This document shows positions 192 through 13,690 of a DNA stretch of 64,000 bases, piece by piece. The position numbers and the translations under genes were made by a program. This DNA comes from Streptomyces umbrinus (GTDB lineage: Bacteria; Actinomycetota; Actinomycetes; Streptomycetales; Streptomycetaceae). Below the pieces are notes generated by a model that was not told the DNA's origin, searched no databases, and saw only the letters and a program-made list of their open reading frames with translations. Numbering within the stretch: the stretch's first letter is position 1; each line of letters opens with the position of its first letter. The stretch spans positions 372,001 through 436,000 of the forward strand of contig NZ_JAUSZI010000002.1 in assembly GCF_030817415.1 (NCBI RefSeq), given 5' to 3'.

Positions 192-1130
192 TCAGCCGAT
201 CCGCCAGGGACGGAGCTTCTCGGGGTTTCGCACCGCCCAGATGTGTCTGATCCGGTCGCCCGCGAGCTCGAACGCGAACACGGTAGCGATGTCGCCGTCC
301 TGCCGTGCCACCAGGCCGGGCAGGCCGTTGACCGTGCACTCCAGGAATGTCGTGCGGTGGCCCGACACACGGGCGATCTCGGCGTAGGCATGTGCGATCT
401 GCTCACCGCCCACGATCGGGAGCAGATGGGTGACGGCCAGGCCGCCGCCGTCGGCGGTCGCGGTGGCATCGGGGTCGAGCAGGCTGATCAGGGCATCGAT
501 GTCCTTGGCCTGCCATGCCGTTCTGAACTGCCTGACGATCCTGGCCTGCCCGGCACTCGGGCCCGCCGGGGACTGCGCGGTGCGGACGCGCCGTCGGGCG
601 GACGAGGCCAGTTGGCGGCACGCCGCCGGAGTGCGGCCGACGATCTCGGCGACCTCACCGAAGGGGTAGCGGAAGACGTCGTGCAGGACGAACGCGACGC
701 GCTCGGCCGGGGCCATCGAATCGAGGACGACCAGGAACGCCATCGTCACCGACTCGTCCAGGGTGACCCGGTCGGCCGGGTCGATGTCACCGGCGCCGGA
801 GCGCCCGGTGATCCACTCCGTGGGCTCCGGCAGCGGTTCCGGGATCCAGTCGCCCACGTACGTCTCCCGCCTGGCCCGCGCCGAGCCGAGCAGGTTCAGA
901 CAGATACGGCTGGCGACCGTCATCAGCCAGGCACCGGGCGACTCGATGGCCTGCCGCTCCTGTGCGGACATGGCGTACCAGCGGGCGTAGGTCTCCTGCA
1001 CGACGTCCTCGGCGTCGGCAAGGGACCCGAGGAGTCGATAGCCGAGGTTGATCAACTGGCGCCGCTCGCTCATGATCGCGCTGAGGCCCGGATCGCTGTG
1101 GTCGTCGCCTGGCTCGGCTCTGCTCGTCAT
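192..1130 (-). CDS. ECF41-type RNA polymerase sigma factor with C-terminal SnoaL-like domain
   Basis: A 312-residue extracytoplasmic-function sigma factor. Region sigma2 is around residues 20-90 (GYRLLGSLADAEDVVQETY). Region sigma4 is around 130-190 (MAPAERVAFVLHDVF, then EVAEIVGRTPAACRQ). The last 110 or so residues form a SnoaL/NTF2-like extension, which in the ECF41 group stands in for a separate anti-sigma factor. Two group hallmarks are visible there: a DGGG motif (here DGGGLA, with Leu where Lys is usual) and the terminal NPEKLRPW, close to the family NPDKL. The ATG at 1130 follows a GAGGGAGA ribosome-binding site about 10 bases upstream. It is divergent from the SnoaL-LUD gene, and its own promoter matches the motif shared with two other genes, so autoregulation is likely. 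The inducing signal cannot be read from the sequence. Confidence 0.9.
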   Translation of the reverse strand: MTSRAEPGDDHSDPGLSAIMSERRQLINLGYRLLGSLADAEDVVQETYARWYAMSAQERQAIESPGAWLMTVASRICLNLLGSARARRETYVGDWIPEPLPEPTEWITGRSGAGDIDPADRVTLDESVTMAFLVVLDSMAPAERVAFVLHDVFRYPFGEVAEIVGRTPAACRQLASSARRRVRTAQSPAGPSAGQARIVRQFRTAWQAKDIDALISLLDPDATATADGGGLAVTHLLPIVGGEQIAHAYAEIARVSGHRTTFLECTVNGLPGLVARQDGDIATVFAFELAGDRIRHIWAVRNPEKLRPWRIG

Positions 1131-1173: not shown

Positions 1174-1203
1174 TACGACAGAACAGCTCGCCGGAATGTG
1201 AGG
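1174..1203 (-). promoter_or_regulatory. ECF41-type promoter of the sigma-factor gene
   Basis: Read on the minus strand: CCTCACA (1203-1197), 16 bases, then TGTCGTA (1180-1174). This resembles the TGTCACA / CGTC promoters known for ECF41 sigma factors. Transcription would start about 38 bases before the ATG at 1130. The spacing and both boxes are the same as in the divergent promoter and in the one at 13586-13615. Confidence 0.7.
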
Positions 1204-1225
1204 TCGCCGCGCCACCTCACATTCC
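1193..1225. repeat. Perfect 12-bp inverted repeat between divergent promoters
   Basis: GGAATGTGAGGT (1193-1204) and ACCTCACATTCC (1214-1225) are exact reverse complements separated by 9 bases. The arms contain the two -35 elements, so the divergent promoters are mirror copies. The similarity continues past the arms into both -10 regions, as expected if one promoter arose by inverted duplication of the other. Confidence 0.85.
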
Positions 1226-1244
1226 GCAGGGCTGCGTTGTCGTA
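1215..1244 (+). promoter_or_regulatory. ECF41-type promoter of the SnoaL-LUD gene
   Basis: CCTCACA (1215-1221), 16 bases, then TGTCGTA (1238-1244). The -10 lies 38 bases before the ATG at 1282, leaving a leader of about 30 bases that holds the AGAGGTGA ribosome-binding site. Confidence 0.7.
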
Positions 1245-1281: not shown

Positions 1282-2382
1282 ATGAACGACTTCCAGGCCA
1301 TCGCGGACCGCGTCGAGATAGAGGCGCTGCGTGGCGAGTTCACCGACACGGCGATGATGCGCGACCGACCCCGCATGGCGTCGCTGTTCACACCGGACGG
1401 CGCCCTGCGCATGCCCAACATCCCCGTCGAACTGGTCGGCCGCGAGGAGATCCGTGCCGGGGGCGAGCGGCTGCAGAGCCAGTGGGACTTCTTCGTGCAG
1501 ACCACACACCCCGGCACCATCCTGCTCGACGGCGACACCGCGACCGGCCGCGCCTACATCCAGGAACTCGCGCGCACCCTCGACGGACGCCAGGGTCTGA
1601 ACTACGCCGTCTACCACGACCGCTACCAGCGCACCGCGGAGGGCTGGAAGTTCGCCGAGCGGGTGTACGAGGTCAGGTACCTCGACACCTCCCCGCTGGC
1701 GGGTACGGCGCCCCACGCGGGGCAGGGCTCCGGGACCAACCCGGCAGACGCCACGGCCGCCCCGGCTCCGGCCGCGTCCTTCGCCGACCCGGCATCGGCC
1801 GAACGACTGGAGCGGGCAGCCGCCGCGCTGCGGGCGGCCGGCTTCGCCGCCGAGATCCTCGACGACGCCGCGGCCGCGCGCTCCCGCATCAAGGACCTGG
1901 TCCCCGAGGGCGCCAGCGTGCTCACCGGAGCCAGCGAAACCCTCCGGCTGTCCGGCATCGACGAGGACATCAACGCCGGCGGCCGGTACGACGCCATCAG
2001 GCCGCGCGTCCTGGCCATCGACCGTGCCACCGGCGCCGACGAGATCCGAAGGCTGGTCACCGGACCCGACTTCGTCGTCAACAGCGTCGCCGCGGTCACC
2101 GAGACCGGCTCGCTCGTTCTTGCCTCGGGCAGCGGCAGCCAACTCCCCGCCAACGCGGGCGGCGCCGCCAACGCGGTCTGGATCGTCGGCGCGCAGAAGG
2201 TGGTCCCCGACCTGAGCACTGCGCTGCACCGCGTCGAGGAGCACGCCCTCCCGCTGGAGAACGCGCGCGCCCAGGCGGCGTACGGGATGCCCAGCGCCGT
2301 CAACCGCCTGCTCATCCTCAACGCGGAGACCCGCCCGGGGCGCGGCACCGTGCTGCTCCTCCGAGAGGCCATAGGATACTGA
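1282..2382 (+). CDS. SnoaL-like domain fused to LUD (LutC/YkgG-type) domain protein
   Basis: 366 residues in two parts. Residues 1-135 are a SnoaL/NTF2-like domain (start MNDFQAIADRVEIEALRGE; LFTPDGALRMPNI). After an Ala/Pro-rich linker, residues 165-366 form a LUD domain (ASVLTGASETLRLSG, SVAAVTETGSLVLASG, VWIVGAQKVVPDL, C-terminal GRGTVLLLREAIGY). LUD proteins include LutC of the lactate-oxidation complex, but many actinobacterial stand-alone LUD proteins have no assigned function. I chose the ATG at 1282 because AGAGGTGA (1270-1276) lies just upstream; an in-frame GTG at 1273 lies inside that site. The gene is divergent from the ECF41 gene and has the matching promoter, so it is probably a direct sigma target. 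The fusion is unusual: both the sigma factor and its likely target carry a SnoaL-like domain. The enzymatic role is unknown. Confidence 0.85.
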   Translation: MNDFQAIADRVEIEALRGEFTDTAMMRDRPRMASLFTPDGALRMPNIPVELVGREEIRAGGERLQSQWDFFVQTTHPGTILLDGDTATGRAYIQELARTLDGRQGLNYAVYHDRYQRTAEGWKFAERVYEVRYLDTSPLAGTAPHAGQGSGTNPADATAAPAPAASFADPASAERLERAAAALRAAGFAAEILDDAAAARSRIKDLVPEGASVLTGASETLRLSGIDEDINAGGRYDAIRPRVLAIDRATGADEIRRLVTGPDFVVNSVAAVTETGSLVLASGSGSQLPANAGGAANAVWIVGAQKVVPDLSTALHRVEEHALPLENARAQAAYGMPSAVNRLLILNAETRPGRGTVLLLREAIGY

Positions 2383-5820: not shown

Positions 5821-6037
5821 GGAGAAGGACTCCTGTGTGTGTGGGGGGAGGTGGAGGTTGGGCTGTCGGGGGTGCGGAGATGACGGCTTGAACGGTCCAC
5901 GCCGTGGCCGATATTTCAAGCATTGTTCGAGATCCCGATCATACGTAGTGCTGTCGGAACCTCCGCCAGTATCCAGTCGCTGACAGCGCCATCAAGTGGC
6001 CCAGCCCATCCGCCACTTCCCCGGTTTGCTACGCTCC
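5821..6037. other. Intergenic stretch upstream of the secreted peptidase and the riboswitch
   Basis: No gene is evident. It contains a purine-rich tract next to the peptidase start and a perfect palindrome CGCTGACAGCG (5978-5988). A TACGCT hexamer at 6030-6035 just before the riboswitch could be its promoter -10. Confidence 0.4.
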
Positions 6038-6160
6038 CGTCGCTGCCTGTGGGGGAAGTCCGGTGAGAGTCCGGCGCTGACCCGCAACGGTGTGCGTGGC
6101 GAACCCGTGGTTCGTCGCGTGAGCCCGATCGCCCGTAGGTGGTGCGACCCGTTGACTGCT
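6038..6160 (+). ncRNA. Cobalamin riboswitch, apparently orphaned
   Basis: The plus strand carries the conserved cobalamin aptamer core: GGGGGAAGTCCGGTGAGAG at about 6050-6069 and GGCGCTGACCCGCAACGG at about 6073-6090. A GAGCCCGATCGCCCG segment (6121-6135) matches the 3' B12-box region. Such elements normally sit before metE, nrdAB or cobalamin-transport genes and switch them off when B12 is plentiful. Here no plus-strand gene follows: from about 6216 the sequence is the tail of a decayed transposase on the other strand. The ends are approximate. Confidence 0.75.
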
Positions 6161-6215
6161 CGCCGTGGACTGCGAGAGGGGACCGCACGGCCGGTGTGTC
6201 GTACGGGCTGCCTGC

Positions 6216-6791
6216 GGCCAAGCCGTTCACTCGAGTCGATGCCCTTGCGGGCGATCCGGACGCCGATGCGCTTGCCCCATAACCATCGTCGAAGGTGGGG
6301 TACGTCGTACGCCTTGTCGGCATGCAGGCGTTGCGGCTTTGAATCGGCCGCATGGGATTCGTGTCCCATGTGGAAATGGGCCACCATCGGCTTCAGTGCC
6401 TGGCTGTCGTGAGTGTTGGCCGCGGAGAGTCCGACGCGTAGGGGCAGTCCGTTCGCGTCGGACAGGACGTGCACCTTGGAACCGGGCCTGCCCCGGTCCA
6501 CGGGGCTCGGACCTGTAAGTTCGCCCCCTTCTTAGCGCGGACATGAGCTGAGTCGAGGACCGCACGGGACAGGTCGACCAGGTCCTCCTCGTCCAGGAGC
6601 TGGAGAACTTTCTGGTGCAGTCGGCCCCAGACCCGGCGCGGGACCAGATGGCGAAGCGGCGATGCACAGTCGACTTCGACTCTCCGAAGCACGGCGGCAG
6701 GGCCCGCCAGGCGCAACCACTGACGAGCACGTGATACGTAGAGTGTCGCCACCCACAAGCCGTCGAAATTGGGCACTCTCAATTTTTTCAA
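6216..6791 (-). pseudogene. IS5-family transposase remnant, multiply frameshifted
   Basis: A DDE transposase can be pieced together from three frames. It runs through GLWVATLYV, then LVSGCAWRALPPCF and KSTVHRRFAIWSRAG, then VWGRLHQKVLQLLDEEDLV and DSAHVRAKKG, then GELTGPSPVDRGRPGSKVHV and LHADKAYDVPHLRRWL, to GVRIARKGIDSSERLGR. At least three frame breaks are needed, near YV/LVSG, RAG/VWG and KKG/GEL; the last falls in a run of five Gs (about 6525). The C-terminus normally continues past SSERLGR with the catalytic Glu region but is cut off at about 6216, against the riboswitch. No terminal inverted repeats are seen. It is an inactive remnant unless frameshifting is programmed at the G-run. 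Confidence 0.8.
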
Positions 6792-6800
6792 CCCGATGGG

Positions 6801-7049
6801 CTAACTCAGCAGCCCATCCTTGCGTTCTTCCTTCGCGGTCATTCGAGCTGAATCCCACCAAACCAGCAGTGTGACGAATAGCGCCAACACTCCCGCTACC
6901 ACAGCCAGCAGGTCGATGAGTGCCGCATCAGCCAGACCCTCGCAGGCAATGCGAACGAGGCTGTAGCCGCAGAAGAGCGTGCCAACGACCAGGCCTGCGA
7001 TGATCCACTTACGCACAGAGCGGTCCCTGCGCACCCCTGGGAGACTCAT
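6801..7049 (-). CDS. Small two-helix membrane protein, hypothetical
   Basis: 82 residues with two hydrophobic segments (WIIAGLVVGTLFCGYSLVRI and LIDLLAVVAGVLALFVTLLVW), short basic ends and a charged tail (MTAKEERKD). The ATG at 7049 overlaps the stop of the preceding minus-strand frame as ATGA, suggesting translational coupling. The family is not recognised. Confidence 0.5.
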   Translation of the reverse strand: MSLPGVRRDRSVRKWIIAGLVVGTLFCGYSLVRIACEGLADAALIDLLAVVAGVLALFVTLLVWWDSARMTAKEERKDGLLS

Positions 7050-11897: not shown

Positions 11898-12570
11898 CTA
11901 GTCGTGGCCCTCGGCAAGACGGAAGTCGTCGTCGACCAGGCCCAGTCGGTGGGCCACGACCGCCGCCTGGACACGGTTGCGCAGTCTCAGCTTGTCCGTG
12001 ACGGAGGCAACGTGGGTCTTGACCGTGGTCACGCCGAGGTGAAGGGTCTCGGCGATCTCCGCGTTGGACTGTCCGACGCCGACGAGGGTGAGTACGTCTC
12101 GTTCGCGGGGCGTGAGGGTTGCCAGAATCGCCGGGTCGGTCGCGTCGCCGGTGACGTCCTGGTGGTGCGACTGGACGGCGCGCCGGACGACGCGCGCCAT
12201 GACCGCGGGGGCGAGAAGCGACTCGCCCTGCGCGGCTCGCCGTACGGCGGAGAGCATCGCGTCGGGCTCGCCGTCCTTCAGCAGATAGCCGACGGCTCCG
12301 GCGCGCAGGGCACCGTAGACCTCGGCGTCGTCGTCGAAGGTCGTGAGCATCACGATGCGCGTTGCGGGGAGAGTCTTGAGGATCCGGCGGGTCGCCTCAA
12401 TACCGTCGACTCGTGGCATGCGCAGGTCCATGAGGATGACGTCCGGGCGCAGCCGCTCAGCCATGCGTACGGCTTCGAGCCCGTCCGTGGCCTCGCCGAC
12501 CACGTCTTCCCCGGCCGTACGCAGCGGCCCGCACGAGGGTCTGGTCGTCGACGACGAGTACGCGGATCAT
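11898..12570 (-). pseudogene. NarL/LuxR-type response regulator, frameshifted near its start
   Basis: Everything after the first 15 or so residues is an intact NarL-type regulator: phosphoacceptor Asp in VILMDLRMP, Thr in MLTTFDDD, Lys in YLLKDGEPD, and a C-terminal LuxR helix-turn-helix (LTPRERDVLTLVGVGQSNAE, TTVKTHVASVTDKLRLR). The expected N-terminus, MIRVLVVDDQTLVRA, is present from an ATG at 12570 but in a different frame; the frames must switch near 12526. The upstream kinase overlaps this ATG by ATGA. Since that kinase is also truncated, I read this as a dying two-component pair, though a sequencing error could explain the shift. Confidence 0.75.
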
Positions 12571-12878
12571 GAGCGGGCTCCCAGGGGCAGCGTGACGCGC
12601 AGTCGCCAGCCGCCGGTGTGGGTGGGGCCGGCGGCGAGGGTGCCGCCGAGGATCTCCACGCGTTCACGCATCCCTGCCAGGCCGTGCCCCGACGCCGGCA
12701 GAGTGGGGTACGGGCCGACCGGTCCGGAGTTGGCCACTTCCACCGACAGTTGGGTGTCGTCGACGTCCACGACGGTTTCGACCTCGGCGCCGGGGCCGGC
12801 GTGCTTGAGCGCGTTGGTGAGGGCCTCCTGCACCACGCGGGCGGCCGTGACCCGGAGCGTGAGCGGTCGCTCTGGCCT
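12567..12878 (-). pseudogene. C-terminal fragment of a sensor histidine kinase (HATPase_c only)
   Basis: Only the ATP-binding domain remains: VTAARVVQEALTNALKHAG (N-box), VEVANSGPVG, SGHGLAGMRERVEILGGTLA (G-boxes) and GGWRLRVTLPLGA. The sensor, membrane and HisKA_3 parts with the phosphorylated His are missing. Upstream of about RPERPLTLRV the frame becomes non-kinase sequence with no start that makes sense. The stop overlaps the response-regulator ATG. The break at about 12870 coincides with the end of a plus-strand remnant, suggesting a deletion. Confidence 0.8.
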
Positions 12879-13009
12879 ACGTACTGTCCCGAGGCTGGCA
12901 GGCCTGGCAACCCGGCACCACCTACCCGACCCAAGGGGACACGACGGTTGCCTCCGGAGGGCAGACATCGTCGCCCGCGCCCGTCCTTCAGCCCCCGGTC
13001 CCCGGATAG
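12877..13009 (+). pseudogene. Possible C-terminal remnant of a secreted or membrane protein
   Basis: On the plus strand the frame beginning at the kinase break reads AYVLSRGWQAWQPGTTYPTQ and then a Gly/Ser/Thr/Pro-rich tail, GDTTVASGGQTSSPAPVLQP and PVPG before the stop. Composition and codon use look coding. The bidirectional hairpin at 13032-13060 would then serve this lost gene and the convergent AhpD-like gene. The function is unknown. Confidence 0.4.
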
Positions 13010-13076: not shown

Positions 13077-13550
13077 TTACCCGAACTGCCCGGGCTGGTA
13101 GTCGCCGGCGGGCTGCTGGACCATGACGTTGAGGCGGTTGAAGGCGTTGATGATGGCGATGATCGACACCAGAGAGGCGAGCTGCTCCTCGTCGTAGTAC
13201 TTGGCGGCGTTCGCCCAGGCCTCGTCCGTGACCCCACCAGCCGCGTCGGCGATGCGGGTGCCCTGTTCCGTCAGTTCCAGGGCCGCGCGCTCGGCATCGG
13301 TGAACACCGTGGCCTCACGCCAGGCCGCGACCAGGTTCAGACGCACCGAGGTCTCCCCCGCGTGGGCCGCGTCCTTGGTGTGCATGTCGGTGCAGAAGCC
13401 GCAGCCGTTGATCTGGCTGGCCCGGAGCCTCACCAGCTCCTGGGTCGCGGCCGGCACTGTCGACTCCCCCATCACCTTGCCCGCCGTGACGATGTGCTTC
13501 AGGGACTTGACTGCGAGCGGGATGTCGAAGAGGTTCAAACGGGCTTCCAT
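13077..13550 (-). CDS. AhpD/carboxymuconolactone decarboxylase-family protein, likely ECF41 target
   Basis: 157 residues. The motif INGCGFCTDMHTKDA has the CXXC pair and downstream His of AhpD-like peroxidase/thiol-disulfide proteins. The rest is the alpha-helical CMD core (LFDIPLAVKSLKHIVTAGKV, TDEAWANAAKYYDEEQLASL). Such proteins act as alkyl-hydroperoxide or redox-relay enzymes. The ATG at 13550 has AAGGAG 8 bases upstream; a longer in-frame start at 13616 would begin inside the promoter. ECF41 sigma factors are typically linked to carboxymuconolactone decarboxylases, oxidoreductases or epimerases. The promoter here matches those around the ECF41 gene at the left of the window, so this is a probable distal member of its regulon. 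Confidence 0.85.
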   Translation of the reverse strand: MEARLNLFDIPLAVKSLKHIVTAGKVMGESTVPAATQELVRLRASQINGCGFCTDMHTKDAAHAGETSVRLNLVAAWREATVFTDAERAALELTEQGTRIADAAGGVTDEAWANAAKYYDEEQLASLVSIIAIINAFNRLNVMVQQPAGDYQPGQFG

Positions 13551-13585: not shown

Positions 13586-13615
13586 TACGACGGGACGGCC
13601 CGGCGAGATGTGACA
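13586..13615 (-). promoter_or_regulatory. ECF41-type promoter of the AhpD-like gene
   Basis: On the minus strand: TGTCACA (13615-13609), 16 bases, CGTCGTA (13592-13586). Both boxes match the ECF41 promoter type, and the spacing equals that of the two promoters at 1174-1244. The predicted start of transcription is about 30 bases before the ATG at 13550. Confidence 0.75.
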
Positions 13616-13690
13616 TCGCCGAATGTGACGCGCGTCTCAGTAGTGGAGAATCAGGGCATGTCCACGCTCGCCCGTCAGCAGGAGTCGCCC

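Follow-up and report, generated by a model that had tools for sequence, protein, structure and literature searches.

Ser177 ECF41 sigma factors, CCTCACA promoters and an adjacent SnoaL-LUD gene in Streptomyces umbrinus

The locus and its three promoter sites

The window, the whole 64,000-nucleotide stretch of the Streptomyces umbrinus genome analysed here, carries an ECF41-type sigma factor gene, a divergent gene encoding a SnoaL-LUD fusion protein, two facing promoters between them and, 12 kb away, an AhpD-like gene of the carboxymuconolactone decarboxylase (CMD) family with a promoter of its own. Promoters are assigned to the C or the G class by the second base of the -35 element. The features are:

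192..1130, minus strand: ECF41/SigJ-type sigma factor, 312 aa, with sigma2, sigma4 and a C-terminal SnoaL-like domain (Pfam, NCBIfam)
600..602, minus strand: codon of Ser177, within RQLASSARRRV of the sigma4 recognition helix; the ECF41 lineages compared with it have Arg here (alignments)
1174..1203, minus strand: sigma-gene promoter, C class, CCTCACA-N16-TGTCGTA (pattern match; kept in relatives)
1215..1244, plus strand: SnoaL-LUD promoter, C class, CCTCACA-N16-TGTCGTA (pattern match; kept in relatives)
1282..2382, plus strand: SnoaL-LUD fusion protein, 366 aa, SnoaL_4 (7-127) and LUD (176-331) (Pfam)
13077..13550, minus strand: AhpD-like/CMD family protein, 157 aa (Pfam CMD, 7.6e-20; ahpD_dom)
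13586..13615, minus strand: CMD-gene promoter, canonical TG class, TGTCACA-N16-CGTCGTA (pattern match, relatives)
13625..13638, minus strand: conserved box GAGACGCGCGTCAC, starting 23 bp before the CMD -35 element (pattern search)

The sigma factor has the fused sigma2-sigma4-SnoaL-like architecture by which ECF41 proteins are recognized, as do Ecf41Bli of B. licheniformis, Ecf41Rsp of R. sphaeroides and SigJ of M. tuberculosis. Pfam identifies Sigma70_r2, Sigma70_r4_2 and SnoaL_2, the last with an E-value of 2.6e-5 and 25.2 bits, slightly below the Pfam cut-off of 27; the NCBIfam SigJ model NF007214 scores 299.9 bits, above its cut-off of 271, and SigJ (5xe7) is the top match among solved structures. 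Pfam and NCBIfam thus agree with an earlier note, made from the letters of this DNA, that had proposed an ECF41 protein with its own SnoaL-like domain. The WLPEP linker motif of the group (PMC3426412) appears as YVGDWIPEP, with I for L. ECF41 genes have no anti-sigma gene beside them; in the part covered here, which comprises the divergent neighbour, encoding SnoaL-LUD, and 191 bp on the downstream side, none is seen.

ECF41 promoters have been described as TGTCACA-N16±1-CGTC, with targets of the COE type: carboxymuconolactone decarboxylase, oxidoreductase and epimerase (Wecke et al., 2012; PMC3426412). In divergent <ECF< >COE> loci the motif often precedes both genes, and a COE neighbour is not absolute, 34% of entries being ECF alone and 6% ungrouped in table 4 of that paper. 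The same work bears out the earlier note's statement that ECF41 proteins control carboxymuconolactone-decarboxylase-type genes. The window shares with the group the 16-bp spacer, GTC in the -10 element and divergent genes with a two-sided motif. It differs in three respects: the -35 elements of the sigma gene and its neighbour are CCTCACA, TGTCACA being found at the third site; the adjacent gene is SnoaL-LUD rather than COE, the CMD gene lying 12 kb off; and the sigma factor has Ser177 in place of the recognition-helix Arg.

All three sites combine a 16-bp spacer with a [TC]GTC -10 element, and their spacer letters are similar (GAGCTGTTC, GGGCTGCGT and GGGCCGTCC). The facing -35 elements of the sigma and SnoaL-LUD promoters are 11 bp apart, and the -10 elements precede the start codons by 43 nt (sigma), 37 nt (SnoaL-LUD) and 35 nt (CMD). 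The earlier note had read these -35, N16 and -10 elements correctly, and its placement of them 30-40 bases before the starts is about right. Its motif, which merges the two -35 classes, matches the window exactly three times and three more times with two mismatches; shuffled windows contain on average 2.72 sites with at most two mismatches and reach six in 5 of 100 shuffles, so it is the exact matches, not the total, that stand out. A genome-wide search, the check named in the earlier note, finds the motif exactly three times in 12.4 Mb, at these sites, and its reversed-pattern control nowhere. The looser NSTCACA-N16-YGTC matches 76 times in the same genome (control, 27), and the stricter one 66 times in 39 of 101 genomes of the genus (control, 1). 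In alignments with relatives, the promoter elements are among the best-conserved parts of both intergenic regions.

Other genes in the window include a histidine kinase gene reduced to its ATPase part and possibly 5'-truncated (12567-12968, minus strand), beside a NarL-type response regulator gene (11898-12503), and overlapping open frames at 5992-6861 (minus strand) whose translations resemble, by eye, pieces of an IS transposase.

The facing promoters and residue 177 in relatives

The LUD domain of the SnoaL-LUD protein is identified by Pfam with an E-value of 4.6e-17. This domain is shared with the LUD family (LutB, LutC; PF02589; PMC3924224), from which the protein encoded here differs in its N-terminal SnoaL_4 domain and in the ECF41-type promoter before its gene. 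A sequence search of solved structures yields five weak matches, the best being a LinA-type dehydrochlorinase (0.0026), on the SnoaL side. An AlphaFold2 model was set aside for fold searches, with a mean pLDDT of 57 and a SnoaL half mostly below 50.

A scan with the SnoaL-LUD protein gave 111 related stretches, and the best 80 of these (79 loci) were kept; the closest matches among them come mostly from named Streptomyces. An alignment of the protein covers 22 sequences. In 55 of the 79 loci a sigma factor at least 60% identical to that of the window is encoded divergently, and promoters are found on both sides in 39, on one side in 14 and on neither in 2. The divergent gene encodes a fused SnoaL-LUD protein in 35 of the 55 loci, LUD alone in 16, SnoaL alone in 2 and separate or other arrangements in 2. 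Fused genes with the promoter pair occur in Streptomyces, Amycolatopsis, Pseudonocardia and Paractinoplanes, and LUD-only genes are present in a number of further actinobacterial genera. In a tally that counted only -35 elements with C at position 2 and not those of the G class, 92 promoters at the 55 loci read CCTCACA (89), GCTCACA (2) or ACTCACA (1). The gap between facing -35 elements is 11 bp in 34 of 39 pairs and otherwise 10 bp (1), 5 bp (1) or 0 bp (3). When 20 selected intergenic regions are aligned, CCTCACATT and its mirror image are nearly invariant and the conservation reaches into the spacer. The divergent promoter pair of the earlier note is thus kept in relatives, together with the adjacent SnoaL-LUD gene as its putative target by sequence. 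Searches of an open-access library yielded no report linking ECF41 or SnoaL with LUD, in keeping with the note's remark that it knew of no description of such a target. Relatives of SnoaL-LUD are present in 14 of the 101 genomes and CMD relatives in 81, with different E-value cut-offs for the two counts.

The promoter class is associated with residue 177 of the sigma factor. Proteins at least 60% identical to the window sigma factor and with a scored promoter almost always have C as the second base of their own -35 element; more distant ECF41 proteins have G. Among 103 aligned sigma factors with a scored promoter, the Ser177 proteins comprise 61 C and one G (L154, with a CGTCACA site), one gene of G081 being entered twice among the 61, and the Arg177 proteins 0 C and 41 G; of the latter, 26 were scored on their own upstream region (TG, CG, GG or AG) and 15 through the promoter of the operon that they form with a CMD gene. 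Of all 163 sigma factors collected, Ser occupies position 177 in 84 and Arg in 78, one fragment being unalignable. In a quick tree of 160 sequences (three of the 163 omitted) the Ser177 proteins form one clade with an SH-aLRT value of 100; a long-branched Arg sequence, L006, is drawn within it with unsure placement.

The likely meaning of this association comes from solved ECF sigma4-DNA complexes. With the -35 element numbered T-36 G-35 T-34 C-33 A-32 C-31 A-30, the two classes differ at -36 and -35. The complexes of E. coli SigE and B. subtilis SigW have R176 and R175, respectively, bonded to the G-35 base, while the residues aligned with R172 and Q173 of the window protein contact -31 and -34 (PMC6713349). 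We infer from the helix pattern how residues and bases correspond, with Ser177 at the place of SigE R176. As in SigE and SigW, the helix has an alignable Arg pattern and the expected -31 and -34 contacts are kept, R172 and Q173 being the same in both promoter classes, as are bases -31 and -34; unlike SigE and SigW, the window sigma factor has Ser at the R176/R175 position and C, not G, at -35. Since the corresponding Arg bonds the -35 G in both complexes, the promoter code is best read as having changed in nature, and a single amino acid replacement may account for this.

Alternatively, the CC class would be real and its preference set by residues of the clade other than Ser177. Ser177 seemingly arose once in the tree, so the 24 other clade-diagnostic residues are confounded with it. 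Yet of the 25 diagnostic positions (counted with L154 omitted) only 177 falls in the recognition helix, and its counterpart in two solved complexes is the Arg bonding the changed base; this alternative is accordingly given little probability. It is reasonably probable, by contrast, that an ECF41 clade rewrote its -35 code by replacing the G-35-reading Arg with Ser, separating its CCTCACA promoters from those of a dozen Arg177 paralogues within one cell, and that a Lys172 sub-branch shifted again. Since the clade adjoins LUD, SnoaL-LUD and CMD genes, the code appears to travel with the sigma factor and not with the target gene.

The Lys172 sub-branch lies within the Ser177 clade and has the helix KQLA[AS]SAR, a pattern selected after the sequences were seen; 11 of the 13 loci examined (L164, L165, L167, L168, L290 and L293-L298) carry a putative divergent CCTTACC, a possible second shift of the -35 code. 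Two further Ser177 sigma factors (L155, L156) have CCTGACA at their own sites.

The CMD gene and its promoter

The earlier note had assigned the third site to the same sigma factor, in a three-gene regulon. Promoters were sought at 90 CMD loci, mostly the better-scoring of 143 CMD matches, and found in 68 and not in 22. Beside a Ser177 sigma factor there are 2 C-class promoters (both CCTCACA), 0 of the G class and 1 locus with none; beside another ECF41 gene the counts are 0, 18 and 7. Orphan CMD genes number 0 C, 20 G and 6 without a promoter where a Ser177 sigma factor is encoded elsewhere in the genome, and 0, 28 and 8 where no sigma factor at least 55% identical was found; the genomes with a Ser177 sigma factor were listed by hand at this identity from the 22 best candidates per genome, and one of those without (G087) has a 46-47% relative, also with Ser. 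Away from a Ser177 sigma factor, therefore, 66 of 66 CMD promoters are of the G class, starting with TG (58), CG (6) or GG (2), that of L194 looking doubtful. The association of class with a Ser177 neighbour has a Fisher p of 0.0004 with relatedness ignored and, as all the sequence sets are related, p values overstate independence. The unclassified CMD gene beside a Ser177 sigma factor (L139, in G081) has no promoter match and lies downstream of that sigma gene's CC promoter.

We conclude that 13586-13615 is, by its sequence, a true ECF41 promoter, read probably by another ECF41 protein, an Arg177 paralogue. A CMD relative in G064, 83% identical, is preceded by TGTCACA...CGTCGTA, the same form as the third site. 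An Arg177 sigma gene with its own TGTCACA promoter is found some 1.3 kb away from it, beyond an SDR gene. S. umbrinus has 13 further ECF41-like sigma factors, 14 in total; 12 ECF41 proteins have Arg177. A second Ser177 sigma factor (C2:5357178), about 50% identical to that of the window, could read CC sites too. In S. phaeochromogenes (L043) the sigma factor is 96% identical to that of the window.

The opposing view, that one ECF41 sigma factor reads all three sites and that the sigma, SnoaL-LUD and CMD genes form one regulon, has in its favour that the sites share their spacing and -10 element, have alike spacers, which a single reader would predict, and are the only exact motif matches in the genome. 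LUD, CMD and SnoaL genes stand in a row beside relatives of the window sigma factor in L077 and L080, and in G031, G093 and G081 a Ser177 sigma factor is paired with CMD, so in some genomes these functions do go together; moreover, G-class sites precede the own genes of two Ser177 sigma factors (CGTCACA in L154, TGTCACG in L147). Against it, CMD promoters are of the G class both where no sigma factor at least 55% identical was found (28 of 28) and where one is encoded elsewhere (20 of 20), those beside a Ser177 sigma factor are of the C class in both classified cases, and the bases that follow GTC in the -10 element, the source of the likeness, vary among CMD promoters; GTA in this place was for this reason rejected as a mark of a single regulon. 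One shared regulon is hence improbable, and cross-reading of 13586-13615 by the window sigma factor is unlikely. Of the three-gene regulon, the pair of sigma and SnoaL-LUD genes is supported; the inclusion of the CMD site, of the TG class, is not, two classes having been merged.

CMD genes and sigma genes of the L176 type are found within 20 kb in 4 of 35 same-contig pairs, compared with 0.3 expected (55 of the 143 CMD rows), an Arg177 paralogue at C2:5587012 being of this type; this proximity argues weakly for any one paralogue, as three of the four sigma factors fall in other Arg177 sub-branches. Elsewhere in the S. umbrinus genome, C2:9856000-9919100 (L169-L172) groups five ECF-type sigma relatives (a partial match in two cases), a CMD gene and six [TC]GTCACA-N16-TGTC sites within about 63 kb.

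The box upstream of the CMD promoter recurs. Among 46 orphan CMD promoters, 31 have GNGAC-N4-GTCAC ahead of the -35 element, against 0.015 expected from mononucleotide shuffles, an excess owed partly to common descent since the sequences are related; the loci lie in L110-L138 and L183-L242. The box starts 23 bp before the -35 element in 24 cases, 34 bp in 4 and 24, 25 and 28 bp in one each, the two main distances being one helical turn apart. When narrowed, the pattern has 12 matches in the S. umbrinus genome (control, 1). The Streptomyces Crp motif is quoted as GTG(N)6GNCAC (PMC10033298), which the window box fits with one mismatch, GAG for GTG; a co-activator, perhaps Crp-like, that aids the ECF41 RNA polymerase at CMD promoters would be a reasonable guess.

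A proposed mechanism and its setting

Taken together, the likely reading is that the Ser177 ECF41 protein reads CCTCACA and drives its own and the SnoaL-LUD gene, the CMD gene being under an Arg177 paralogue. In the proposed mechanism, a distinct ECF41 clade would have exchanged for Ser177 the Arg with which the sigma4 recognition helix reads -35, and the resulting holoenzyme would read CCTCACA-N16-[TC]GTCG[TA]A in place of TGTCACA-N16-CGTC. The fused SnoaL domain would keep the sigma factor inactive until a small molecule or state alters its shape, a form of control proposed for ECF41 in the review literature. Once released, the sigma factor would transcribe outwards from the facing promoters into its own gene, giving positive feedback, and into SnoaL-LUD. 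The CMD gene would most likely be transcribed by one of the 12 Arg177 paralogues, possibly helped by a Crp-like activator. The SnoaL-LUD protein has a SnoaL domain as well and so, speculatively, may act on the compound sensed by the sigma factor; it is perhaps an enzyme for a related small molecule.

That the facing 71-bp repeat is instead the operator of a dimeric repressor or activator is scarcely credible and was rejected: it is a well-conserved imperfect inverted repeat, but the distance between its arms varies (11, 10, 5 or 0 bp), a single arm is detected in 14 loci, and each arm has the promoter layout published for ECF41, its elements spaced by 16 bp and followed after 37-43 nt by a start codon.

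Because TGTCACA-N16-CGTC and two-sided divergent ECF41 promoters were published in 2012, the kind of system is already known; what appears to be new here is the Ser177/CCTCACA branch with its putative LUD-type targets. CCTCACA could already be among the subgroup motifs of the 2021 ECF reclassification or of Wu et al. (2019) on ECF41 and ECF42. A search of an open-access library yielded nothing relevant, judged by title, on CCTCACA with a sigma factor in Streptomyces, and the available text of a RIViT-seq study (PMC9205884) presents no ECF41 regulon. Streptomyces genomes carry many ECF41 copies, and the branch bears on how such paralogues avoid each other's promoters: a one-residue, one-base switch found in dozens of genomes would be a directly testable answer to cross-reading. 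Ser177/CCTCACA would also supply gene circuits with a sigma-promoter pair that is already separate, and LUD and SnoaL-LUD proteins join the likely ECF41 targets.

Several arrangements elsewhere touch on these genes. The adjoining LUD, CMD and SnoaL genes of L077 and L080 are the parts that in Streptomyces are fused or scattered, which suggests one small detoxification or redox module. At L103:5914 a SnoaL gene has a canonical TGTCACATTCC...CGTCGT site upstream, with no LUD or sigma match in that stretch. In G065 the paired sites occur as identical mirrored copies (C1:17930-18000 and 8501660-8501730) equidistant from the two ends of an 8.5-Mb contig; a terminal inverted repeat is thus the probable setting of this locus.
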